Origin: Dyella sp. SG609
Lineage (GTDB): Bacteria; Pseudomonadota; Gammaproteobacteria; Xanthomonadales; Rhodanobacteraceae
Direction of reading: 5' to 3'
Assembly: GCF_012275375.1 (NCBI RefSeq)
Contig: NZ_JAAZQJ010000002.1
Location: 434,001 to 498,000 of the forward strand
Length of the DNA: 64,000 bases
Shown: positions 48,161-63,810 of the stretch, one piece after another
Numbering within the stretch: position 1 is the first letter of the stretch
Layout of the letters: the number at the start of each line of letters is the position of its first letter
Program-made: the position numbers and the translations under genes
Notes under the pieces: model-generated
Databases searched by the model: none
Seen by the model: the letters and a program-made list of their open reading frames with translations, nothing else
Told to the model about the DNA's origin: nothing

Positions 48161-48522
48161 CTCGCCCTTCTTGCTCGTCATCCCGGCGCAGGCCGGGATC
48201 CAGTAACGGTATCGTTTGATTTTCGCGGTGACGCGATTTGGCCGCTTATGCAGCGGGCATTTCGGACGCCTGCCGGCGCCCGAGTCACTTTCTCTTTGCT
48301 GGCTCAAAGAGAAAGTAACCAAAGAGAAATAGCCTTAGAGCAAAGGCTCGCGACGCGACTAGAAGGAGCAGTGGACGGCTGCGGTAACCTGATTAACCTG
48401 GGTCTACACGAAACATCAGTGCGTTTACGTAACGGCTGCTTCAACGTGCCGTGGCCGAGAGGATGTTCAAGAACTGAGGCCAGCTTTTGAGCTGCCTGTT
48501 ACCTCAACCTCCCAGTACGAAT

Positions 48523-48758
48523 CCTTCTCCCTCCGGGAGAAGGTGGCGGCAACCGGATGAGGGTTCGGGCGGAGCGCAGCGTTACACCCCGCGACGCTGG
48601 CGTAGGTTGGGGTGAGCGTAGCGAACCCCAACGTGGCGAAGCGCGTGAAGGTGCGGGTGTTGGGGTTCGCCTGCGGCTCACCCCAACCTACGCCGGCAAG
48701 ATTTGGCCTTGCGCTCCGCCCGGCCCCTCACCCTGCCCTCTCCCCGGAGGGGAGAGGG
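48523..48758. repeat. Palindromic repeat B, copy 2, split by repeat C
   Basis: Left hairpin CCTTCTCCC/GGGAGAAGG (48523-48543), right hairpin CCCTCTCCCC/GGGGAGAGGG (48736-48758), with matching flanks (GGGCGGAGCG versus CGCTCCGCCC). The interior is interrupted by repeat C at 48599-48694. Confidence 0.85.
48599..48694. repeat. Palindromic repeat C, copy 2, at the centre of the nest
   Basis: GGCGTAGGTTGGGGTGAGC (48599-48617) pairs with its exact complement at 48676-48694; internal arms GAACCCCAAC and GTTGGGGTTC extend the similarity. The centre is about 25 bases. Confidence 0.85.
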
Positions 48759-49116
48759 ATGAAAGCGTGAGGTAGGCAGGAACGAAGAACCAAAGCCAGC
48801 CTCAGTTCTTGAACATCCTCTCGGCAACGGCACGTTGAAGCACCCGCTACGTAAACGCACTGTCGTTTCGTGTAGACCCAGGTTAATCAGGTTACCGCAG
48901 CCGCCCACTGCTCCTTCTAGTCGCGTCGCGAGCAGTGGCTCTTAGGCCATTTCTCTTTGGTTACTTTCTCTTTGGGCCAGCAAAGAGAAAGTGACCCGGG
49001 CGCCGGCAGGCGCACGGAATGCCCGCTGCATAAGCGGCCAAATCGCGACAACCACACCTAGTCGCTACTGGATCCCGGCCTACGCCGGGATGACGAGCAA
49101 GGACTCCACCAACCCC

Positions 49117-49749
49117 TTAGTGGCGCTGGCTATGCCGCGCCTCCAGCACACGGCACACCTCACGCATGCCGAGGCCACGCGCGCGCAGCACCACCATCAA
49201 GTGGAACACCAGATCAGCGGCCTCGCCGAGCAACGCCTCATCATCCTGCGCCACCGCAGCGAGAGCGGTCTCCACCCCCTCCTCACCCACCTTCTGCGCC
49301 ATACGGCGAATACCACCCTCAAACAGACGCGTGGTGTAGCTGCCCTCCGGGCGCTCAGCGTGGCGCCGCTCCACCAACCGGTCGAGCACGGCCAGAAAGC
49401 CCAACGGCGGCGCCACCCCCACCTGCTCGCCGAAGCAGCTCGACGTGCCGAGATGGCAAGTCGGTCCCTGCGGTTCCGCCTGCACCAGCAGCGTGTCTGC
49501 GTCGCAATCCACGCGCAGCGACTTCAACGCCAGCACGTGTCCCGAGCTCTGGCCCTTGGTCCACAAACGCTGCTTGCTGCGGCTGAAGAACGTGACCTGG
49601 CCGGAATCCCGCGTCTTCGCCAAAGCCTCGGCATTCATATAGCCGAGCATCAGCACCTCGCCGGTCAGCCAGTGCTGCACCACCGCGGGCAGCAGGCCGT
49701 CGCCCTTGCTCCAGTCCAGTCGCGCGAAGTCGGTGTTGAAGTCGGTCAT
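49117..49749 (-). CDS. hisI: Bifunctional phosphoribosyl-AMP cyclohydrolase / phosphoribosyl-ATP pyrophosphatase
   Basis: Second and third steps of histidine synthesis in one chain (HisIE). It has 210 residues: an N-terminal HisI domain with metal-binding 'RVDCDADTLL' and 'TCHLGTSSCF', and a C-terminal HisE domain (from about 120) with 'QKVGEEGVETALAA' and 'LGEAADLVFHLMVVL'. It is last in the operon, 12 bases after hisF, and ends close to the large repeat. Confidence 0.95.
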   Translation of the reverse strand: MTDFNTDFARLDWSKGDGLLPAVVQHWLTGEVLMLGYMNAEALAKTRDSGQVTFFSRSKQRLWTKGQSSGHVLALKSLRVDCDADTLLVQAEPQGPTCHLGTSSCFGEQVGVAPPLGFLAVLDRLVERRHAERPEGSYTTRLFEGGIRRMAQKVGEEGVETALAAVAQDDEALLGEAADLVFHLMVVLRARGLGMREVCRVLEARHSQRH

Positions 49750-49761
49750 GGTCGATTCCGG

Positions 49762-50532
49762 TCAGAGACGTGTCGCAATGCCCGCGCCACGCAGGTAGTG
49801 CTTGAGCGCGGGAATGGCGATCGTGCCGCTGTGGAACACGCTGGCCGCCAATGCGCCGTCCACGTCGGCCACCGCGAACGCATCGCGGAAATGCTCCGGC
49901 GCACCCGCGCCGCCGGAGGCCACCAGCGGCACGCGGCACAACCTGCGTGCGGCGTGCAGCTGCTCCAGGTCGTAGCCTTCGCGCACGCCGTCGCTGCCCA
50001 TGCAATTGAGCACGATCTCACCGGCGCCCAGGTGCTGGGCCTCCTCGATCCAGTCCAGCGTGCGCCGCGCCAGGGCCTGGGTCTTGCCCGGGTCGCCGGT
50101 GTACTGGCGCACGCGCCATTCGCCGTCGGCGTCGCGCAGGCTGTCAACGCCGACCACCACGCATTGCACACCGAATGCATCGGCCAGTTCGCCGATCAGC
50201 GCGGGCCGTTCCAGCGCGGGCGAGTTGACCGAGATCTTGTCGGCGCCGGCGTGCAGCACGGTGCGCGCTTCTTCCACGCTGCGGATGCCGCCGGCCACGC
50301 AGAACGGGATGTCGATCTCGCGCGCCACGCGCTCGACCCAGCCGCGGTCCACGCTGCGCCCTTCCGGGCTGGCGGTGATGTCGTAGAACACCAGTTCGTC
50401 GGCGCCTTCGTCGCGGTAGCGCATGGCCAGCTCGACGATCTCGCCCATCACCACGTGGTCGCGGAAGCGCACGCCCTTGACCACCTTGCCGTCGCGCACG
50501 TCCAGGCAGGGAATGATGCGGCGGCTCAGCAT
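49762..50532 (-). CDS. hisF: Imidazole glycerol phosphate synthase cyclase subunit
   Basis: Uses ammonia from HisH to make IGP and AICAR. It is a 256-residue (beta/alpha)8 barrel with catalytic Asp11 ([10 protein letters not shown]) and the matching Asp in '[14 protein letters not shown]'. It overlaps hisA by 7 bases. Confidence 0.97.
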
Positions 50533-51254
50533 GCCAATGCCTCCTCGATGGTGAAGCGGCCTTCCAGCAGGGCGCGGCCCAGGATCACGCCCTGCGCGCC
50601 CGCGTCACGCGCCGCCACGATGTCTTCTATGGAGCGCACGCCGCCGGAAGCCTGCACGGCCAGCGCCGGCACGCTGCGCGCGAGCTCGCGGTAAAGCTCC
50701 AGGTTGAACCCGGCCAGCATGCCGTCGCGGTCGATGTCGGTGCACAGCAGCTGCTGGGCGCCGCGCTCGGCGTACCAGGGTGCCAGTTCGTCCAGCGAGC
50801 GGGCTTCCAGTTCGGTCCAGCCGGCGCTGGGCAGGGCCCAGCGCCCGTCGATGCGGCGCGTGTCCAGCGCGATGGTGAACCGCTCCGCGCCGTACTCGTG
50901 CAGCCAGCCGCCGACCCGTTCGGGCTCGCGGATGGCCACGCTGCCGAGCACCACGCGCGCCACGCCGGCATCGAACAGGCGGCGCAGATCGTCCTCGCCG
51001 CGCACGCCGCCGCCGGCCTGCACGTGCATGCCGTCGCGGGCGATCGCCTCGATCACGCGCAGGTTGTCCAGGCTGCCGGAACGGGCCCCGTCCAGGTCCA
51101 CCACATGCAGCCACATGGCGCCCGCGCCGGCGTAGCGCAGGGCCAGCGCGCGCGGCTCGAACTCATAGGTGGTCTGCTGGGCGTAGTCGCCCTGGCGCAG
51201 GCGCACCACGCGGCCGGCGCGCAGATCGATGGCGGGGATGACGGTAAAGCTCAT
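50526..51254 (-). CDS. hisA: Phosphoribosylformimino-5-aminoimidazole carboxamide ribotide isomerase
   Basis: Fourth-step isomerase of histidine synthesis. It is a 242-residue barrel from the ATG at 51254, with catalytic Asp8 ([10 protein letters not shown]) and the '[13 protein letters not shown]' loop. It overlaps hisH (ATGA-type) and hisF. The longer frame upstream is a shadow of hisH and is rejected. Confidence 0.97.
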
Positions 51255-51853
51255 AGTTCGAGGAAGTTCTGCAGGAGCCTGGCGCCGACGGCGGCGGAAC
51301 GCTCGGGGTGGAATTGCATGCCGTGGAAATTGCCGCGCGCGACGACGGCCGAGAACGCACCGCCGAAATCGGCGCTGGCCAGCGTGTGCTCGCCCGGCGG
51401 CAAGGCGTAGCTGTGCACGAAGTAGGCCCAGCCTTCGTGCCCCGGTCCGTTCCCGAGCCCGGCCACCAGCGGATGCCCGCGCTCGACGCGCAGCTTGTTC
51501 CAGCCCATGTGCGGCACGCGCAGCTCCGGCGTGTCGGCGAAACGGCGCGCCGCGCCGGGGATCACGCCCAGGCACTCGGTATCGCCTTCTTCCGAGCGCT
51601 CGAACAGCAATTGCATCCCCAGGCACACGCCCAGCACCGGCTGGGTGAGCGAGCGCATCAGCTCCACCAGCCCCAGCTCGCGCAGGCGCGCCATGCCGGG
51701 GCCGGCGGCGCCGACGCCGGGCAGGATCACCTTGTCGGCGGCGCGGATCGCCTGCGCATCGGCGGTGAGCGCCGCATCCGCGCCCAGCCGCTGCAGGGCG
51801 TAGCGCACCGAGCCGATATTGGTGCCGCCCGCATCGACCAGCACCACGGCCAT
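51251..51853 (-). CDS. hisH: Imidazole glycerol phosphate synthase glutaminase subunit
   Basis: Class I glutamine amidotransferase partner of HisF. It has 200 residues with nucleophile Cys77 (GVCLGMQ), 'LPGVGAAGPGM' and C-terminal 'GMQFHPERS' containing His and Glu of the triad. The ATG at 51853 shares a base with the hisB stop (TAATG). Confidence 0.96.
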   Translation of the reverse strand: MAVVLVDAGGTNIGSVRYALQRLGADAALTADAQAIRAADKVILPGVGAAGPGMARLRELGLVELMRSLTQPVLGVCLGMQLLFERSEEGDTECLGVIPGAARRFADTPELRVPHMGWNKLRVERGHPLVAGLGNGPGHEGWAYFVHSYALPPGEHTLASADFGGAFSAVVARGNFHGMQFHPERSAAVGARLLQNFLEL

Positions 51854-52917
51854 TACAGCGCTCCCTTGGTGCTGGGCAGCTCGCTGCCCTCGCGGCGGAT
51901 GGCGTCGCGCAGGGCGCGCGCCACCGCCTTGAAGCAGGCCTCGACCATGTGGTGCGCGTTCTCGCCGTAGACGCTCAGGTGCAGGTTCGCGCCCAGGGTC
52001 TCGCACAGCGAGCGGAAGAAATGCGGCACCAGCTCGGTCGGCACCTCGCCCACGCGTTCGCGCGGGAAATTGCCGTCGAACACGAAGTACGGGCGGCCCG
52101 AAAGATCCAGCGCCGCGCTGGCTTCCGATTCGTCCATCGGCAGCACGAAGCCGTAGCGGCCGATGCCACGCTTGTCGCCCAGCGCCTGCCGCAACGCCTG
52201 CCCCAGGGCCAATGCGCAGTCCTCGATGGTGTGGTGCTCGTCGATATGCGTGTCGCCGTCGCACTCAAGTTCCAGCGCGAAGCCGCCGTGCTTGCCGATC
52301 TGCTCCAGCATGTGGTCGAAGAAGCCCAAGCCGGTGCGGGCCTTGGGCTCGGCCACGCGGTCCAGGTCCACGCTTACCGTGATGCGGGTTTCCTTGGTGT
52401 TGCGCACGACCGTGGCGGTGCGCGGCGCATCCAGCAGCTGGTGCGCGATCTCTTCCCACGACTGGCCCTTGGGCCCGACCAGGAAGCCGCGCACGCCCAT
52501 GTTGGCGGCGAACTGCAGGTCGGTCTGGCGGTCGCCCACCATGGCCGAGAGGCCGCGGCTCCAGCTGTCGTCGGCCAGGTAATGGCGCAGCATGCCGACA
52601 CCGGGCTTGCGCGTGTCCAGCCCGTCGCGCGGGAAGCTGCGGTCGATCAGCACTTCGCGGAAGCGGATGCCCTGCGAGGACAGGATGCGCATCAGCAGCT
52701 CGTGCGGGCCGGTGAAATGCGCCTCGGGGAAGCTGTCGGTGCCCAGGCCGTCCTGGTTGGTGACCATCACCAGCTCGTAGCCGGCGGCCACGCAGCGCTG
52801 CAGCGCGGCGATCACGCCGGGCAGCAGGGCGAGTTTCTCGTAGCTGTCGATCTGTTCGTCGGCCGGTTCCTCGATCAGGCAGCCGTCGCGGTCGACGAAA
52901 AGCATCTTGCGGCTCAT
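51853..52917 (-). CDS. hisB: Bifunctional histidinol-phosphatase / imidazoleglycerol-phosphate dehydratase
   Basis: The 354-residue fusion typical of gammaproteobacteria. The N-terminal HAD phosphatase has DxD at residues 9-11 (VDRDGCL); the C-terminal dehydratase starts about residue 170 with '[16 protein letters not shown]', '[14 protein letters not shown]' and '[14 protein letters not shown]' (Mn-binding His clusters). It is coupled to hisC and hisH. Confidence 0.97.
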
Positions 52918-53975
52918 ACGCGTCCTCCATTCAGCACTTCGAGCACACGCGTATTCTCCGCCGGAGTACCCAGGGTAATGCGCAAGGCATCGGCAAGATT
53001 CGGATAACGCCGTACGTCGCGGACCACGATCCCGGCCGCGAACAGGCGCTGATAGGCGCCGCCGGCATCGTCGAAGCGCACGGCAAGGAAATTCGCCTGC
53101 GAAGGCAGCACCTCGCGCACGCCCGGCACGGCGGCCAGCGCGGCGGCCATGCGGCTGCGCTCTTCACGCACGATGCGGATATGTCCGGCCGCTTCCGCCT
53201 GGCCCGGCACCGACAGGCCGTCCAGCGCCGCCGTCACGCAAGGCAGCGGCAGCGGATACGGCGGAATGATCCGACGCAACAGGGCGATCACCTCGGCATT
53301 TGCCAGCAGCGTACCGACGCGCGCGCCGGCCAGCGCCCAGGCCTTGGACAAGGTGCGCAGCACGGCGAGGTTGTCGTAAGTGTCGATCAGCTCCGCCACG
53401 CTGCCGCCATCGGCGAATTCGACATAGGCCTCGTCCACCACCAGCAGCGCGCGGCCGGCCAGCTCGCGCGCCAGGCGCTCGATGGTGGCGCGCGGCACCG
53501 GCTGTCCGGTGGGATTGTTCGGCGTGCAGACGAAGACCAGCTTCACCGCCGGCGTGATGGCGGCCAGCAGAGCGTCGGCATCCACCGTGAAATCGGCGGC
53601 GAGCGGCACCTCCACGATGCCCGCGTCCTGGATGCGCGCGCACACCGAGTACATGCCGAAGGTCGGCGGCTGGATCGCGATGGCGTCGCGCCCCGCGCGG
53701 CAGAACGCGCGCACCAGCAGGTCGATCGCCTCGTCGCTGCCGCGGCCGACCAGCAGTTGCTCCTCGCGCACGCCGTAGAGCTGGGCCAGCGCCTGCAGCA
53801 GCGCGGCCGGCTGCGGATCGGGATAGCGGTTGCAGCCCTGCCCCGCCGCGCCCGCCGGCGCCCAGGCCGATTCGTTCGCATTGAGCAGGATGGCGCCGCC
53901 GCTGGCTTCCATGCGCGCTGAGGAATACGGCTGCATGGCGCGGATCTCCGGACGCGCCAGATCGAGCACGCTCAT
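52914..53975 (-). CDS. hisC: Histidinol-phosphate aminotransferase
   Basis: PLP enzyme forming histidinol phosphate. It has 353 residues with '[10 protein letters not shown]', 'NRYPDPQP', '[12 protein letters not shown]' and the PLP-lysine motif '[15 protein letters not shown]'. It starts at ATG 53975, overlapping the hisD stop (ATGA), and its stop overlaps hisB. Confidence 0.96.
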
Positions 53976-55279
53976 GCCTTCGCCTCCAGCGCGGCCAGGC
54001 GCAGCGTCACCGCGCGGCGGTGCGCTTCCAGTTGCTCGGCGGCGGCCAGGGTCGCGGTGCAGGGGCCGATCGCGCGCAGGCCGTCGGCGCTCAGTTCCTG
54101 CACGGTGATCTGCTTCTGGAAACTGGCCACCGACACGCCGCTGTAGCTGCGCGCATAGCCGTAGGTGGGCAGCACGTGGTTGCTGCCGCTGCAGTAGTCG
54201 CCCACCGATTCCGGCGTCCAGGCGCCGAGGAAGATCGAGCCGGCGCTGTCGATGCCGTCCAGCAGCGCGCGCGGCGCGGCCACCTGCAGGATCAGGTGCT
54301 CCGGCGCGTAGCGGTTGCTTACCGCCACCGCCTGTTCCAGCGAATCGACCAGGATCAGGCGGCTCTGCGCCAGCGCCTGCGTCGCGATGTCCGCCCGCGG
54401 CAAGGCCGCGCACTGGTTGTCGACTTCCACCGCCACGCGGTCCAGCAGCGCATCGGAGGGACTGAGCAGGATCACCTGCGAGTCGGGGCCATGCTCCGCC
54501 TGCGACAGCAGGTCGGCGGCGACGAATTCCGGATCGGCCTGGCCGTCGGCGATCACCAGCACTTCCGAAGGACCGGCCGGCATATCGATCGCGGCGCCGT
54601 CCGGGTCGCCGGATACTTGCAGCTTGGCCTCGGTGACCCAGGCATTGCCGGGGCCGAACAGCTTGTCGCAGCGCGGCACGGTTTCCGTGCCATAGGCCAT
54701 GGCGGCGATCGCCTGCGCGCCGCCCAGCTTGAACACGCGGTGCACGCCGGTGACGCGCGCGGCATACAGCACCGCCTCGTCGCAGCGGCCGTCCGCGCGC
54801 GCGGGCGAGCACAGCACGATCTCGCGGCAGCCGGCGATGCCCGCCGGCACGCCGAGCATCAGCGCGGTCGACGGCAGCGGCGCGCTGCCGGCCGGCACGT
54901 ACAGGCCGACTTTGGCGATCGGACGCAGCACGCGTTCGACGCGCACGCCCGGGGCGGTGTCCACGGCGACGGGTCGCGGCGCAGACTCGCGATGGAAGGC
55001 CGCGATGCGCGCGGCGGCTTCTTCGATGGCGGCCTTGAGCTCCGGTGCGAGCGCCGCTTCGGCGGCGGCGAATTCCTCCGCTGTCACCTCGATCGCCTCG
55101 ATCGCGCAGCGGTCGTACTTCGCGCTCAGCTCGCGCAAGGCGGCATCGCCTTCGGCGCGCACCTTGGCGACGATCGCCTCGACGCCGCGGCGCAGTTCCT
55201 CCGCGCGCGACTGCGCGGGACGGGCCAGTGCCTGCACCTGCGCCGCGGGATCGAGCGCATTCCAGTCCAGTCGTTTCAT
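53972..55279 (-). CDS. hisD: Histidinol dehydrogenase
   Basis: Zn- and NAD-dependent last enzyme of the pathway. It has 435 residues; '[18 protein letters not shown]', '[13 protein letters not shown]', '[15 protein letters not shown]', '[15 protein letters not shown]' and 'AEHGPDSQ' are conserved. It starts at ATG 55279, overlapping the hisG stop. Confidence 0.96.
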
Positions 55280-56169
55280 GCCAGCATCTTCTCCACCGGC
55301 AGCACGAACATCTCGCGCGCGCCGGCCTTCTTGATCTCTTCCAGCTGCCGCCAGCTCACCTCGCCCGCGCACAGCGCCTGCAGCATCAGCTGGTCCGGCT
55401 GCCCCGCCACCGGCAGCAGGGTCGGCTGCGGGCCGCCCGGCAGCAGGCGGGTCACCGCGTCCAGGTGCTGGCGCGAGGTCTGCAGCAGCAGCAGGCGCGA
55501 CTCGCGCACCTGCATCACGCCGTCGAGGCGCTTAAGCAGCAGCTCGATCATGTCGCCGCGCTCGTCGGTGGGCAGCACCTTGGGGCCGGCCAGCACCGCC
55601 TCGCTTTCCAGCAGCACGTCGGCCTCGCGCAGCTGGTTGGCGACCAGGGTGCCGCCGCTCTGCACCAGATCGCAGATCAGGTCGGCCGTGCCCAGCCGCG
55701 GCGCGATCTCGACCGAACCGGCCAGGGTCACCACGCCGGCGTCGACGCCGCTGCGGCGCAGCCAGTCGCGCAGCAGTCCCGGATACGAGGTGGCGATGCG
55801 CAGCCCGGCCAGCTGCGGCGGCTGCTCGTAGTTCATCTCTTGCGGCACCGCGATCGACAGCCGGCAGCGGCCGAAGCCGAGCGGCCGCCATTCGGCCAGC
55901 GGTTCGGTCTCGCGCCCGTCGGTAAGCGAGTACTCGCTGAGCACGTTGCGGCCGACGATGCCGAGGTCGCACACGCCCTGGGCGATCAGCCCCGGGATGT
56001 CGTCGTCGCGGACCAGCAGCAGGTCGACCGGCTCGCCTTCGCCGAACAGGAACAGCTTGTCGCGGCTCTGGCGGAAGCTGAGGCCGCAGCGGTTGAGCAG
56101 GTCCAGCGCCGGCTCGGTCAGCCGGCCGGATTTCTGCATGGCGATACGCAGGCGGTCACGCGGTTTCAT
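55276..56169 (-). CDS. hisG: ATP phosphoribosyltransferase, long form
   Basis: First, feedback-regulated step of histidine synthesis. The 297 residues match the long hexameric HisG with a C-terminal ACT-like regulatory domain, so no HisZ is needed. 'IAMQKSGRL', '[10 protein letters not shown]' and '[13 protein letters not shown]' are typical. The ATG at 56169 overlaps the stop of the upstream regulator gene (ATGA). Confidence 0.96.
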
Positions 56170-56498
56170 GCACGCCCCTTCTTCGCCGCCCGGCGGCGCG
56201 ACGCACGGGCCGCGGCGGCGAGATAGCCGCCATTGCCCTGGTTGAGGAAGCGCGCCACGCGCCCGATGGTGGTGATGCTCACCGCCGTGCGCTCGTGGAT
56301 CTCCCGGTACGGCACCTCGTCCAGCAGATACGGCACCACCCGCCAGCGATCCACCAGCACTTCCAGCTCGGCCGGCGTGCACAGGTCGCGCAGGAAGGCG
56401 CTCATCTCCTCGGTGTTCTTCAACGACAGCAAGGCCTCGCTCAGACTGAGCTCGGCGGACTCGGCAGGCAGTTCGGGATCCAGCGATCGACGCTTCAT
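56166..56498 (-). CDS. TrpR-family (YerC/YecD) repressor heading the his operon
   Basis: A 110-residue helical protein of the Trp repressor superfamily. The helix-turn-helix is 'PYREIHERTAVSITTIGRVARFLNQGNGGY' (positions about 63-92), with the TrpR-like 'IGRVARFLNQGNGGY' recognition region, and 'LRDLCTPAELEVLVDRWRVV' as the dimer core. It is the first gene of the his operon, coupled to hisG by an ATGA overlap, and a palindrome ends 2 bases before its start. The obvious inference is a histidine-linked regulator of this operon; the corepressor is unknown. Confidence 0.88.
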   Translation of the reverse strand: MKRRSLDPELPAESAELSLSEALLSLKNTEEMSAFLRDLCTPAELEVLVDRWRVVPYLLDEVPYREIHERTAVSITTIGRVARFLNQGNGGYLAAAARASRRRAAKKGRA

Positions 56499-56500
56499 AA

Positions 56501-56520
56501 TGTACTAACGCGTTAATACA
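56501..56520. promoter_or_regulatory. 20-bp palindromic operator-like site at the his operon start
   Basis: TGTACTAACGCGTTAATACA is a palindrome broken by one base pair. Its outer half-sites GTACTA and TARTAC recall the GTACTA of the E. coli trp operator. It lies between the likely transcription start and the YerC-like ATG, where a bound repressor would block initiation. Binding by the adjacent TrpR-like protein is inference. Confidence 0.7.
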
Positions 56521-56529
56521 GTGGAGCAG

Positions 56530-56558
56530 ACTATAACCCGCTTGTGCGCTTGCAGCAA
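56530..56558 (-). promoter_or_regulatory. Promoter of the his operon
   Basis: On the minus strand TTGCTG (56558-56553), a 17-base spacer and TATAGT (56535-56530). The start would fall near 56523, giving a leader of only about 25 bases that contains the palindrome and no histidine-rich leader peptide or attenuator. Confidence 0.7.
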
Positions 56559-56662
56559 GCCCGCTACCCGGGGCTTATTGCCCACCCGGACCGCCACACC
56601 CGCAACGACCGCTTCACCCGCCCAAGGCCTACAATCCGCGACTTTCCGCCCCAACGCGCCCC

Positions 56663-57277
56663 ATGACCGACACGCGCCCCGTCGCCCCGACCGCCCATCT
56701 CCTCCTGCTCACCACCACCGTCTTCGCCCTGGTCTGCGGCGCCGCCCAGTTCTGGCGGCACGACCTCGACCCCATCGCCATCCCCCTCAGCTTCTATCTC
56801 ACCGGTCCCGGCGGCGCCTACGTGCGCCTGGCGTATTACCTGATCTCGGCCGGCCTGCTGGGCTTTGCCTTGGGCGGATACCGCGCAACATCGCCACCAC
56901 TGCGCAGCCGCCTGGCCTCGACGCTGTTCGCAGGCGCCGGCCTGGCCCTGCCCGTCGTCGCACTCACCGAGCTATTCCTCGGCTCACCGTACGAACAACC
57001 GGCACGCCTGATTCACGGCCTCGCCGCGCAGGCCACGTTTCTGTGGCTGAGTTTCGGGATGCTGCTGTTGAATGCACGCTGGCGACGCGATGCCCTGCTG
57101 CGCACAGGCAGCACGGCGGGATGGATCGTGGCGTGGCTCGCGACCGTGGTGCTGTGGTCCCACGTATTCCTGCGCGACCTGCCGCATGGGCTGATGCAGA
57201 AGCTGACGATCGGCTTGATTCTGGTGTGGCTCGCATGGGCGGCGCGGCATATGCGGCGCGCGGCTGGCGTCAGATAA
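56663..57277 (+). CDS. DUF998-like integral membrane protein
   Basis: A 204-residue protein with about six TM segments (first 'AHLLLLTTTVFALVCGAAQFW'), 'DPIAIPLSFYLTGPGGAYVRLAYYLISAGLLGFALGGYR' (positions about 36-74) and a C-terminal basic end. The layout resembles DUF998 proteins, whose role is unknown. It is divergent from the his operon and followed by repeat A copy 3. No ribosome binding site is obvious. Confidence 0.7.
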   Translation: MTDTRPVAPTAHLLLLTTTVFALVCGAAQFWRHDLDPIAIPLSFYLTGPGGAYVRLAYYLISAGLLGFALGGYRATSPPLRSRLASTLFAGAGLALPVVALTELFLGSPYEQPARLIHGLAAQATFLWLSFGMLLLNARWRRDALLRTGSTAGWIVAWLATVVLWSHVFLRDLPHGLMQKLTIGLILVWLAWAARHMRRAAGVR

Positions 57278-57310
57278 AGGGCTTTGGCTCGATGCGTGTT
57301 GCCGCAAGCC

Positions 57311-57690
57311 TTGGCCCCTCACCCTGCCCTCTCCCCGGAGGGGAGAGGGGTGATGTCGTGAGGCAGGCAGGAACGAAAAGCAAAAGCTGGCCCCGGTCGC
57401 TGAACGTCCTCTCGGCAACGGCACGTTGAAGCACCCGCTACGTAAACGCACTGTGGTTTCGTGTAGACCCAGGTTAATCAGACTACCGCAGCCGCCCACT
57501 GCTCCTTCTAGTCGCGTCGCGAGCCTTTGCTCTAAGGCTATTTCTCTTTGGTTACTTTCTCTTTGAGCCAGCAAAGAGAAAGTGACCCGGGCGCCGGCAG
57601 GCGCACGGAATGCCCGCTGCATAAGCGGCCAAGTCGCGACAACCTCACCTAGTCGCTACTGGATCCCGGCCGACGCCGGGATGACGAGTA
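57311..57690. repeat. Repeat A, copy 3
   Basis: About 380 bp, collinear with and closely matching the right arm of the large nest (about 48722-49104), including the CTCTCCCC hairpin (57327-57349), the TTTCTCTTTG/CAAAGAGAAA hairpin and the terminal ATCCCGGC-type hairpin. It separates the DUF998 gene from the convergent hutH-like gene. Confidence 0.9.
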
Positions 57691-57718
57691 GGGAGGCCTA
57701 CGCCAGGACGACGAGCAT

Positions 57719-59620
57719 TCAGCCGACAGCGCGCCGCTGCACCAGCTCGCACACCGTGCGCACATCCCCATCCATCGCGCGATCACGCGACATAAACCCA
57801 ATGTGCCCACGCAACACATCGTGCGCCTTGCGCACCGCCTCCCCCGCGTGGAAATCCCCCACCCCGGCCAAGGCCGAGGTCAACTGCTGCACCTCCGCAG
57901 CAAACTGCGCGTAATGCGCATGATCCTCCCGCGGCGCATTCGCCACCTTGGCCGCCAGCGCCCTCCAGTCGCCACGCGCCGCCAACCGCCGCGCGGCATT
58001 CAACATCGCCTGGCGCAAATCCAGCGCCTGCGCCGCCGTATACAACTCCAACGCAATCACATGGCTGAGATCATCCAGCATCTCCAGCACATGCCGCGCC
58101 TCATTGGCGCCCATGGAGACATGATCCTCGGCATTGGCACTCGTCGGCACCGAGTAGACGCTGGCCGGATGCGCCCGCGTCGCCAGATCGTTGACCAGCG
58201 CCGCCGCCGTGTACTGCACGATCATGAAGCCCGAGTCGGTACCGTCCTCGTTGCCGGTAAGAAACGCCGGCAGCCCGTCGTTGGTCGCCGGATCCACCAG
58301 CTTGTTGAGCCGGCGCTCGGAAATCGAAGCCAGCACCGGAATCGCGGCCTTGACGTAGCTCATCGCCAGCGCCAGCGGCATCCCATGGAAATGGCCCGCC
58401 GAAATCACCTGCTCCTCGATGAACTGCGCACCCTCCGCGTCCGGGAAGATCAGCGGATTGTCGGTCACCGCATTGAGCTCGATATCGATCACGCGGCAGG
58501 CCTGCGCCCAGGCATCGCGCACCGCGCCATGCACCTGCGGCATGCAGCGCAGGCAATAGGCGTCCTGCGGCTGGTGCTTCTTGCCGCCCTTGAACGGCAG
58601 GAAGCGGCTGTAGAAGGCCTCGCGGCCGTGGCGCTGATTGGCCGGCACCCAGTCCCAGCCGATGTCGAAGCTGAGCGCCTGGTCTTCCGGCGCCGTCCAC
58701 GCATCGGAAGCCCACTGCTTGAAGCGCGGCACCAGGTGGTAAGGAATATCCACCAGCGTGCTTTCGGTCAGCAGCTCGCGCACGTGCCCGGCGGCTTCCA
58801 CCTGGCCGGGATGCGGGCGCAGCGCGTGCACTTCCGGGCGCAGCGCGCCGCTGCGGCCGGCGAAGGCGTCCAGCGTCATGGCGGCGGCCAGGTCCGCGGT
58901 GTCCAGCAGGTATTCCAGCGTGTCCAGCGCCAGCGCGGCGGTGGCCAGCATCTGCGCGGTGCCGTTGTTCAGCGCCAGGCCTTCCTTGAAGGACAGGCGG
59001 ATCGGCACCAGGCCCGCGCGCTCCAGCGCTTCGGCGCCAGGCAGGCGCTCACCCTGGTAGAACGCTTCGCCGCCGCCGAGCAGCACGATGGCCAGGTGCG
59101 ACAGCGGGGCGAGATCGCCGCTGGCGCCGACCGAGCCCTTCTCCGGCACCACCGGCACCACGCCGCTGTTGAGCAGCGCGGCCAGCGCGCGCAGGGTTTC
59201 CACGCGGATGCCCGAATGGCCGCGCATCAAGGTATTGATGCGGATCACCAGCATGGCGCGCACCACGTCCTCGGCGAACGGCTTGCCCACGCACACGGCA
59301 TGGGTGGTGATGAGGTTGTGCTGCAGTTCTTCCAGCAGCGTGCCTTCCGGCTTTTCAGGGTGGCCGCCGGGCAGCTCATCGCGCAGGCGATGCGCGCCCA
59401 GCAGCTTGTCCGCGTTGCTGCCGAAACCGGTGGTGACGCCGTAGGTCGGCTCGCCGCAGCTCACCTTGTCGGCGAGGAAATCCGCGGCGCGCTGCACGCG
59501 CGCCAGCTGCGCCTCGTCCAGCACCACCGGCACGCGCTCGCGCGCGGCGGCAACCAGTTGCGCGCGAGTGAGGCTGCTGCCATCGAGTCGGATCTGCTCA
59601 CGCTCATGGATATGGCTCAT
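57719..59620 (-). CDS. HutH-like aromatic amino acid ammonia-lyase, long form
   Basis: MIO-dependent lyase (histidine, tyrosine or phenylalanine ammonia-lyase family). The MIO tripeptide is Ala166-Ser167-Gly168 within GSVGASGDLAPLSH; Tyr60 (EPTYGVTTGFGSNAD) is the active-site base. At 633 residues it is about 120 longer than typical HutH, with an extra segment near 286-350 (containing 'FDIGWDWVPANQRHGREAFY') and a longer C-terminus. The specificity pair is Thr106-His107, closer to the Ser-His of histidine lyases than to Tyr/Phe lyases, while the Glu usually specific for histidine is Asp478. No other hut genes are adjacent, so the substrate is open. Confidence 0.85.
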   Translation of the reverse strand: MSHIHEREQIRLDGSSLTRAQLVAAARERVPVVLDEAQLARVQRAADFLADKVSCGEPTYGVTTGFGSNADKLLGAHRLRDELPGGHPEKPEGTLLEELQHNLITTHAVCVGKPFAEDVVRAMLVIRINTLMRGHSGIRVETLRALAALLNSGVVPVVPEKGSVGASGDLAPLSHLAIVLLGGGEAFYQGERLPGAEALERAGLVPIRLSFKEGLALNNGTAQMLATAALALDTLEYLLDTADLAAAMTLDAFAGRSGALRPEVHALRPHPGQVEAAGHVRELLTESTLVDIPYHLVPRFKQWASDAWTAPEDQALSFDIGWDWVPANQRHGREAFYSRFLPFKGGKKHQPQDAYCLRCMPQVHGAVRDAWAQACRVIDIELNAVTDNPLIFPDAEGAQFIEEQVISAGHFHGMPLALAMSYVKAAIPVLASISERRLNKLVDPATNDGLPAFLTGNEDGTDSGFMIVQYTAAALVNDLATRAHPASVYSVPTSANAEDHVSMGANEARHVLEMLDDLSHVIALELYTAAQALDLRQAMLNAARRLAARGDWRALAAKVANAPREDHAHYAQFAAEVQQLTSALAGVGDFHAGEAVRKAHDVLRGHIGFMSRDRAMDGDVRTVCELVQRRAVG

Positions 59621-59718
59621 AGGTGTGCTCCGCGCCGGTGGGCGCTGGTCTCATGGGGAATGGGGATGCGGCAAGAGGAACCGCGCGGACGCCATCGGCG
59701 ACGGCGTCCGCGCCGGGA

Positions 59719-61092
59719 TCACGGCGCGATCTCGGCCTGCGCCAGCTCGACGCGCAGCGTCTTGATCAGTTCCGCGCGGGCGACTTCGAACTGGTCCTCG
59801 CGGCGCATGTCCTTCACCGTGACCACGCCCTTGGCCAGTTCGTCCTCGCCCAGCACCAGCACGAAGCGGATGCCCGCGCGGTCGGCGTACTTGAACTGCC
59901 TGGCCAGCTTGCCGCCTTCCAGCACCACCTCGGTGGCGATGCCGGCGCCGCGCAGTTCGCTGGCCACGGCCAGGTAGTCGGCCATGCGCGACTCGTCCAT
60001 CTGCGTGACCAGCACGTCCACCGTGCTGCGCGCGGTGCTGACCAGGCCGGCTTCGCGCAGCTGCCAGTACAGGCGGGTCAGGCCGATGGAGATGCCCACG
60101 CCCGGCAGGCGCGACTTGGTGTACTGGCCGGCGAGGTTCTCGTAGCGGCCGCCGGAGCAGATCGAGCCGATCTGCGGGTAGTCGTTGAGCGTGGTCTCGT
60201 AGACGGTGCCGGTGTAGTAGTCCAGGCCGCGCGCGATCGACAGGTTCAGCGCGAAATGCGATTCCGGCACGCCGAAGTCGCGGATCAGGCCCAGCACTTC
60301 CTTCAGCTCCGCACGGCCCTGCTCCATCGACTCCGGACCCGCGCCGAGCGCGTCGAGCTGCTCGAACGCCTCGCGCACCGAGCTGGAACGCACCTGCACG
60401 AAGGCGAGGATCTTCTCGGCCACGTCGGCGGCCAGGCCGAAGCTTGCGCCGGTGAGCGTCTCGCGCACGTAGTCGGCGCCGCGCTTGTCCAGCTTGTCCA
60501 CTTCGCGCAGCACCAGGGTCTGCTGCTCGGCGTCGCTCACGCCCAGGCTCTCGAAGAAGCCGCGCATCAGCTTGCGGTTGTTGAGCTGGATGGTGAACGC
60601 GCCGATGTTCAGCTCGCGGAATACGCTGTAGATGACCGCCGGCAGCTCGGCGTCGTAGCGCACCGACAGGCCGTCCTTGCCGATCACGTCGATGTCGCAC
60701 TGGTAGAACTCGCGGAAGCGGCCGCGCTGGGCACGCTCGCCGCGGTACACGCGCTGCATCTGGTAGCGGCGGAACGGGAAGCTCAGGTCGTGCTCGTGCT
60801 CGGCCACGTAGCGGGCCAGCGGCACGGTGAGGTCGAAGCGCAGGGCAAGCTCGGGCTTCTCGCCCTGCTCCAGCGACCCGGTGGACTGCACGAAATACAC
60901 CTGGCGCTCGGTCTCGCCACCGGTCTTGGTCAGCAGCACCTCGGAGAACTCCATCACCGGCGTTTCCACCGGCAGGAAACCGAAGCGCTCGTAGTTGCGG
61001 CGGATCGTGTCGAGCATGCGCTGGAACGCGATCTGGTCGAGCGGCAGCAGCTCGAGTACACCGGGCATGGTGCGGGCCGGGGTAAGCGCCAT
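59719..61092 (-). CDS. hisS: Histidyl-tRNA synthetase
   Basis: Class II aminoacyl-tRNA synthetase. It has 457 residues with motif 2 '[24 protein letters not shown]' (positions about 109-132), the histidine-binding '[13 protein letters not shown]' and motif 3 '[15 protein letters not shown]'. The ATG at 61092 is chosen by homology; the longer frame has no start signal. It is separated from the ammonia-lyase gene by 98 bases and is divergent from tRNA-Pro. Confidence 0.95.
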
Positions 61093-61219
61093 GAAATCCT
61101 CTGCTTCGAAAGGGAAACGCTGCCGGCGCCATGGCGCGCGGCGGTAGCCGCATAGGTTAGCAGAAGGCCTGCGCGGCCCTTCGCCGGGCGCGGCGCGGAA
61201 TCGGAATGTTCCGGACCTG

Positions 61220-61248
61220 TTGCGAAGTCCGCCGAGGGTCATTAAGAT
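61220..61248 (+). promoter_or_regulatory. Promoter of tRNA-Pro(CGG)
   Basis: TTGCGA (61220-61225), 17-base spacer, TAAGAT (61243-61248), ending 12 bases before the tRNA. Confidence 0.65.
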
Positions 61249-61260
61249 ACGCGGCTCCCA

Positions 61261-61337
61261 CGGGGTGTAGCTCAGCCTGGTAGAGCGCTACGTTCGGGAC
61301 GTAGAAGTCGCATGTTCGAATCATGTCACCCCGACCA
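61261..61337 (+). tRNA. tRNA-Pro(CGG)
   Basis: 77 nt. Acceptor CGGGGTG/CACCCCG beginning with C1, anticodon loop TTCGGGA (anticodon CGG), T-loop TTCGAAT, CCA encoded. Confidence 0.95.
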
Positions 61338-61348
61338 ATTCGATGATC

Positions 61349-61372
61349 AAGCCGGCCCAGCGCCGGCTTTTT
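61349..61372 (+). terminator. Terminator of tRNA-Pro
   Basis: AAGCCGGC/GCCGGCTT with loop CCAGC, then TTT. Confidence 0.85.
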
Positions 61373-61406
61373 CATGTCCGCGCTTCGCCGCGGCAACGCA
61401 GGCAGC

Positions 61407-62216
61407 TCAGTCGAGCAGCGCCAGTTCGGCCAGCCGGTCCATTTCCTCGGCGTCGAAGCCCGCTTCCAGCCGCGCCTGCCGGTTGAACGGTCCGCGCGGC
61501 GTGCGGCCCATGTAGCCGCGCAGCAGATCCAGGAAGGCCTGGCGCGGCTCCAGCCCGTCGCGTTCGCAGCAGTGGCGGAACCAGCGCGTGCCGGCGGCGA
61601 CGTGCGCCACTTCCTCGCGCAGGATCACTTCCAGGATCGCGATGGTGCGCTCGTCGCCCGCGCCGCGCAGGCGCTCGATGATGCCGGGCGTCACGTCCAG
61701 CCCGCGCGCTTCCAGCACGCGCGGCACCAGGGCCATGCGCGCGGTGTCGTGATGCGCGGTCTTCTCGGCCATTTCCCACAGGCCGTTGTGCGCGTCGAAA
61801 TCGCCGTAGGCGTGGCCCAGTTCCGCCAGGCGCTCGCTGAGCATGTCGAAGTGGCGCGCCTCGTCGTGGGCGCAGCTGGCCCAGTCGCGGTAGTAGGCGC
61901 CGGGCTTGCCGCGGAAGCGGTAGACCGCGTCCCAGGCCAGGTTGATCGCGTTGAATTCGATATGCGCCACGGCATGCACCAGCGCCGCGCGGCCTTCGGA
62001 GCTGCCGAGGCCGCGGCTGGGCACCTTGCTGGCGTGGACCAGCAGCGGGCGTTCGGGGCGGCCGGGCGCGCCGATGGGTTCGGGCGCCGGCGAGGCCGGA
62101 TCCGGCTGCAGTTCGCCGGCCAGCAAGGCGTTCCAGGCCGCGTGCGTCAGGCGCACTTTCTCCGCCGGATCGGTGGCGTCGAGGCAGCGCTTCGCGGCTT
62201 GGTACAGGTCGTTCAT
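61407..62216 (-). CDS. DUF455 family ferritin-like protein
   Basis: A 269-residue helical protein of the ferritin-like DUF455 family. The likely diiron ligands are in 'HIEFNAINLAWDAVYRF', 'CAHDEARHF' and 'EVILREEVAHVAAG'. Function is not established; a hydroxylase or oxidase activity would fit the fold. The C-terminus 'FNRQARLEAGFDAEEMDRL' is conserved in the family. It is preceded by repeat C copy 3. Confidence 0.87.
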   Translation of the reverse strand: MNDLYQAAKRCLDATDPAEKVRLTHAAWNALLAGELQPDPASPAPEPIGAPGRPERPLLVHASKVPSRGLGSSEGRAALVHAVAHIEFNAINLAWDAVYRFRGKPGAYYRDWASCAHDEARHFDMLSERLAELGHAYGDFDAHNGLWEMAEKTAHHDTARMALVPRVLEARGLDVTPGIIERLRGAGDERTIAILEVILREEVAHVAAGTRWFRHCCERDGLEPRQAFLDLLRGYMGRTPRGPFNRQARLEAGFDAEEMDRLAELALLD

Positions 62217-62225
62217 GACGCAAGT

Positions 62226-62317
62226 GTAGGTTGGGGTGAGCCGCAGGCGAACCCCAACATCGCGATGCGCACGGCGGTGGCGGTGTCGGGGTTCGCCTGC
62301 GGCTCACCCCGACCTGC
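62226..62317. repeat. Palindromic repeat C, copy 3
   Basis: 34-base terminal repeats (62226-62259 and 62284-62317, three mismatches) beginning GTAGGTTGGGGTGAGC, with a 24-base centre. It separates purF from the DUF455 gene, both on the minus strand. Confidence 0.88.
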
Positions 62318-62334
62318 CCGTTGCGGCAGGGTGC

Positions 62335-63810
<1,476 letters not shown>

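Follow-up and report, generated by a model that had tools for sequence, protein, structure and literature searches.

A conserved operator for a predicted HisR repressor at the head of the histidine operon in Dyella

Results

Organization of the hisR–his locus

The 64-kb window, the whole stretch of DNA from a soil Dyella that was analysed, contains a complete his operon on its minus strand, headed by a gene for a regulator. Starting from the upstream end, hisR (56166–56498) encodes a TrpR-related repressor of the HisR (YerC/YecD) family, 110 residues long, and is followed by hisG (55276–56169), hisD (53972–55279), hisC (52914–53975), the bifunctional hisB (51853–52917), hisH (51251–51853), hisA (50526–51254), hisF (49762–50532) and hisIE (49117–49749). 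The TGA of hisR is overlapped by the ATG of hisG (ATGA), with a Shine–Dalgarno-like AAGGGG upstream of the hisG start. In front of hisR, the minus strand reads, 5′ to 3′, TTGCTG, 17 bases, TATAGT, nine bases, the 20-bp palindrome TGTATTAACGCGTTAGTACA, TT and the ATG of hisR. This is the arrangement that an earlier note on this DNA had described, a promoter followed by a 20-bp palindrome and then by a TrpR-superfamily gene leading a complete his operon, and all of its parts are found on that strand.

The surroundings of the operon hold several further features. A DUF998 gene (56663–57277) is divergent, with its start approximately 165 bp from that of hisR, which in principle is near enough for the operator to affect the DUF998 gene too. 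The operon is adjoined by a hutH-like aromatic amino acid lyase gene (57719–59620, 633 residues), whose product has an insert at approximately residues 291–350 that is covered in 24 of the 25 genomes searched within the family and skipped by several genomes at greater distance. A dispersed 300-nt repeat flanks the operon on both sides, with direct copies at 48722–49021 and 57313–57612 (92%); inverted copies occur as well, and 48229–48489 is among the repeat coordinates. A short hairpin repeat near purF (62228–62315), with 36-nt arms that are 92% complementary, has a copy at 48621–48691, and the repeat gives a sub-threshold Rfam match to an animal microRNA that is surely noise.

Identity of the HisR protein

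The product of hisR matches PF01371 at 81.8 bits, which bears out the placement of the gene in the TrpR superfamily by the earlier note, and it is the sole match to that model in the Dyella genome. Its own family is TIGR02531 (YerC/YecD), with a score of 57.4 bits against a curated cut-off of 42.2, as opposed to TIGR01321 (TrpR), where its 31.1 bits fall short of the cut-off of 67.25; an identity as TrpR was rejected on these scores. The nearest solved chains (3frw, 3g1c and 3kor) are of the HisR type, with TrpR chains far behind at E values of about 0.35. By its family matches, the protein is HisR, related to TrpR within the superfamily but separate from it. Among named hisR genes, the closest belongs to D. 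marensis (99%). A hisR 84% identical to the Dyella gene, accompanied by the operator, lies on a contig titled Candidatus Eremiobacteraeota (L162), which probably comes from Xanthomonadales and was mis-binned or mislabelled.

Promoter and predicted transcription start

The −35 element TTGCTG (56553–56558, minus strand) is a weak match with three of six consensus bases, and the −10 element TATAGT lies at 56530–56535. A consensus-based scanner found no promoters, the hisR promoter falling under its threshold, so the promoter call rests on conservation of position. That conservation is moderate. Among the 45 aligned loci in which the operator occupies −22 to −3 relative to the hisR ATG, TTGC at −60 to −57 carries 0.54–0.99 bits per base, and a −10 element with at least four of six matches is found at −37 in 28. 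The σ70-like promoter of the earlier note stands, its hexamers being where that note had put them, with the reservation that its −35 element is weak and the scanner is blank.

The predicted transcription start is an A at 56522 (minus strand), 24 nt before the ATG, which we infer from its conservation at 1.65 bits in the same 45 loci. With this start, the operator would span +3 to +22, and the predicted 5′ UTR of 24 nt would consist almost entirely of operator. A Shine–Dalgarno-like 4-mer precedes hisR in none of these 45 loci and in 4 of 92 hisR loci overall. As hisR is without such a sequence and hisG has one, the output of repressor would be expected to stay low relative to that of the enzymes.

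Conservation of the operator

The predicted HisR operator (56501–56520, minus strand) pairs at nine of its ten palindromic positions. An equally good palindrome arose in 25 of 5,000 mononucleotide shuffles of the 250-bp region, which makes the palindrome alone modest evidence. The HisR-type pattern TGTANTAN6TANTACA, allowing up to two mismatches, occurs at one place in the window, against an expectation of 0.04, and the Dyella operator fits all 12 specified bases of this proteobacterial form. Elsewhere in the genome (5.1 Mb), nothing matches the exact 20-mer with three mismatches or fewer. The trp operator, with the consensus TGTAcTnGTnnACnAgTACA, has similar outer half-sites, a likeness that the earlier note had pointed out.

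We then looked for the palindrome in relatives, a check proposed in the earlier note. Of 99 genomes of the order (the Dyella genome included), 92 have a hisR match, three of the matches containing an in-frame stop (G078, G079 and G094). In 91 of the 92 loci, hisG follows on the same strand at a distance of up to 1,500 nt, L082 being the exception. Start sites of divergent hisR loci were extrapolated. An operator with at least 9 of the 12 specified bases lies within 250 bp upstream in 91 of 92 loci, with 11 or 12 bases in 80, although the pattern was modelled on a published consensus and conservation of the fixed bases is thus partly built in. The remaining locus (L093) has a 12/12 site overlapping the assumed start, so that all 92 loci have a site by hisR. 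A palindrome not conserved in relatives, which the earlier note had named as a refutation, is therefore not what was found. At the same threshold of 9 of 12, the reversed pattern and shuffled sequence each gave a site in 3 of 92 loci. Positions left free by the pattern are conserved as well: A8 in 80 of the 92 loci, C9 in 72, G10 in 85, C11 in 88, G12 in 58 and T13 in 68. In 73 loci, no other 20-bp palindrome of the region is better than the operator. In 45 loci the operator occupies precisely positions −22 to −3 relative to the ATG, ending two bases before the start codon, and in other loci it begins 23 to 194 bp ahead of the assumed start. A chance palindrome was rejected on the basis of this conservation, the reversed and shuffled controls and the single match in the window.

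Two further samples agree. Named hisR loci, mostly from Dyella and Rhodanobacter, have the operator within 300 bp in 80 of 80 cases, a tally made without a control on loci kept from 85, some of them from the same genomes as the 99. Outside the order but within the class, 13 of 14 loci with hisR matches over the cut-off have an operator with at least 10 of 12 bases (reversed pattern, 1 of 14), and hisG was detected downstream of hisR in 12; the exception, L233, scores 9 of 12 against 10 for its reversed-pattern control. Four class genomes with matches below the cut-off (L241–L244), which may be TrpR, were excluded from the 14.

Two genomes of the family of the Dyella window are without hisR. 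G031 has no match for hisR, hisG or hisD and is possibly a histidine auxotroph or an assembly gap; in G041, hisG is absent too and hisD is truncated where the contig ends. Neither genome, then, shows loss of hisR alone.

Half-sites recur at 8-bp steps

Half-site matches were scored at outward shifts of 1–18 bp from the operator's own halves. Across the 92 his operators, the best match on either side comes at a shift of exactly 8 bp, with scores of 5.29 and 5.27 of 8, and other shifts reach at most 4.08 of 8; on one side, the peak partly reflects a TTA formed with the start codon. Dimers of TrpR sit in tandem on DNA, 8 bp apart, and the stepped half-sites fit a similar side-by-side arrangement of HisR dimers. 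These repeats are new as far as we have seen.

Leader peptides where hisR is missing

The earlier note had seen no His-rich leader peptide or attenuator here. The classical his attenuator, a His-rich leader with a terminator before the first his gene, was likewise not found upstream of hisR in our analysis: the predicted 5′ UTR is 24 nt long, and neither positions 49000–62500 of the window nor locus L002 has a match to the Rfam His_leader model (RF00514). No leader frame with HHH occurs in any of the 92 hisR loci (350 bp each); a looser His motif appears in one, within a 54-residue frame that is unlike a leader. An attenuator role for the region was rejected on these grounds.

In one family of the order, all five sampled genomes are without hisR and have a divergent hisG. 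There, a leader peptide with a His run precedes hisG in four of the five loci (HHH in three, HRHHRH in one), and the fifth (L098; genome G076) has none in the 320 bp examined. His_leader matches in three loci of this family score below the gathering cut-off. Across the class, the model passed its cut-off in 1 of 321 genomes. One genome, G121, combines hisR with a weak leader match (E = 7 × 10−4), but the stretch read there contains no peptide with HHH. The attenuator and HisR would control the same operon in different members of the order, and within the order the contrast between leaders in four of five hisR-less loci and HHH frames in 0 of 92 hisR loci supports the suggestion of the earlier note that a TrpR relative represses histidine synthesis in place of attenuation. 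A dedicated repressor in most of the order, as opposed to a classical attenuator in most loci of the hisR-less family, would amount to a natural swap of mechanisms.

A predicted autoregulatory circuit

The position of the operator and the gene order suggest, with high confidence, a circuit in which histidine-bound HisR represses the hisR–his promoter. HisR with histidine would block RNA polymerase at this shared promoter and would hence repress both its own gene and the pathway; when histidine drops, HisR would leave the operator. The proposal of histidine as corepressor draws on a homologue from Ruminococcus gnavus (Firmicutes), for which histidine promotes DNA binding according to the main text of Ashniev et al. 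2022 (PMC9413887), where this protein belongs to a lineage with a different operator consensus.

The superfamily membership of the protein and the trp-like outer half-sites of its operator would also suit a tryptophan repressor that sits in the his operon by chance and cross-regulates it in response to tryptophan. This reading is very improbable: the protein fails the TrpR model and passes that of HisR, the strict site pattern matches twice in the genome, at the his promoter and between gyrB and a TPR-protein gene, and two of nine tryptophan-contacting residues are kept in one HisR compared in the main text of PMC9413887. Somewhat less improbable, though still unlikely, is a HisR that senses another ligand, such as an intermediate of the histidine pathway, with the operator logic unchanged. 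The evidence for histidine does come from one distant Firmicutes homologue, but it was histidine that promoted binding there, and the operon context is histidine synthesis. Equally hard to credit as the tryptophan repressor is the idea that the main role of the palindrome is to control hisR translation by forming a hairpin in the short 5′ UTR of the mRNA. The palindrome would be transcribed from the predicted start and ends two bases before the ATG in nearly half of the loci, as such a hairpin might; however, shuffled versions of the predicted leader fold better than the leader itself (z = +1.9), a result on which an RNA-structure role was rejected, the site stands at variable distances from the assumed start in other loci, and a site of this form also occurs near gyrB, where no start codon adjoins it.

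We regard the arrangement described in the earlier note as real and its interpretation as supported, but the circuit of histidine-responsive repression by HisR had already been predicted by Ashniev et al. 2022 (PMC9413887). The main text of that study predicts HisR for Xanthomonadales, with the operator motif TGTAnTArnnnnyTnTTACA, and reports that hisR leads the his genes in most Proteobacteria with HisR. In the literature searched, this was the single paper clearly devoted to the subject, and no experiment on the HisR prediction in Proteobacteria turned up; PMC12589107, in the part available, names the HisR family once, in a genome list, and 'HisR' is absent from PMC5343134. The conservation found here independently backs the published prediction of a dedicated repressor for the his operon of the order. 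As for the known relative, E. coli TrpR is of the same superfamily, has similar outer half-sites and represses its own gene (PMC5343134, available part), whereas it differs from HisR in family model, operon and probable ligand. The 8-bp-stepped half-sites and the site near gyrB described below are found in the Dyella analysis, as opposed to the HisR regulon in the main text of PMC9413887, where neither was seen: 'gyrB' and 'tonB' have no occurrences there, and 'tandem' has two, on other matters.

A second HisR-type site between gyrB and a TPR-protein gene

The Dyella genome has a second HisR-type site outside the window, in the gap between gyrB and a TPR-protein gene (G000:C8:128001–128020), with 9 of the 12 specified bases. 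Similar sites emerged from two pattern searches. A first pattern, drawn from his sites alone and run over 41 genomes at up to two mismatches, matched at 14 positions other than his promoters (the reversed pattern had 6 matches); of the 12 that were read, leaving out two in G068, seven lie between gyrB and the TPR-protein gene. A second pattern, devised after the gyrB sites had been seen and covering both kinds, gave 66 places in 57 family genomes at zero mismatches (reversed pattern, 20 places); his promoters account for 50 of the 66 and other locations for 16. Eleven of these 16 are in the gyrB–TPR gap, that of the Dyella genome included; the remaining five, away from gyrB, look like chance given the reversed-pattern count.

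Among the 30 TPR loci closest to the query, taken from 97 genomes with a match, a site with at least 9 of 12 bases lies in the gap in 17 loci (reversed pattern, 1 of 30) and one with at least 10 in 11 (reversed pattern, none); 13 loci have no site. The palindrome is conserved in L185–L191 and L197–L211. For 15 of the 17 loci, the distance from the gyrB stop to the site is 49–95 nt, and in L220 it is 242 nt, the gyrB stop of L217 not having been located; the TPR-protein gene usually lies some 230–320 bp beyond the site. In an alignment of 14 gaps, the site forms an island well upstream of a conserved stretch that precedes the TPR-protein gene, and no common promoter was seen beside it by eye. 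On one side of the site, the half-site match reaches 5.18 of 8 at a shift of 8 bp, with other shifts at 3.88 or less (n = 17); on the opposite side, the peak hardly rises above the rest (4.29 versus 4.18; n = 17).

As the only PF01371 protein found in the genome, HisR is the natural candidate to bind this site. We consider it an even chance that Dyella and related genera have here a second conserved HisR operator, one that might couple histidine supply to the TPR–tonB genes or act as a decoy or a distal site. In the single locus inspected for it, a tonB-like gene comes after the TPR gene. The site may be new, as far as we have seen, and suggests that HisR may not be a purely local regulator.
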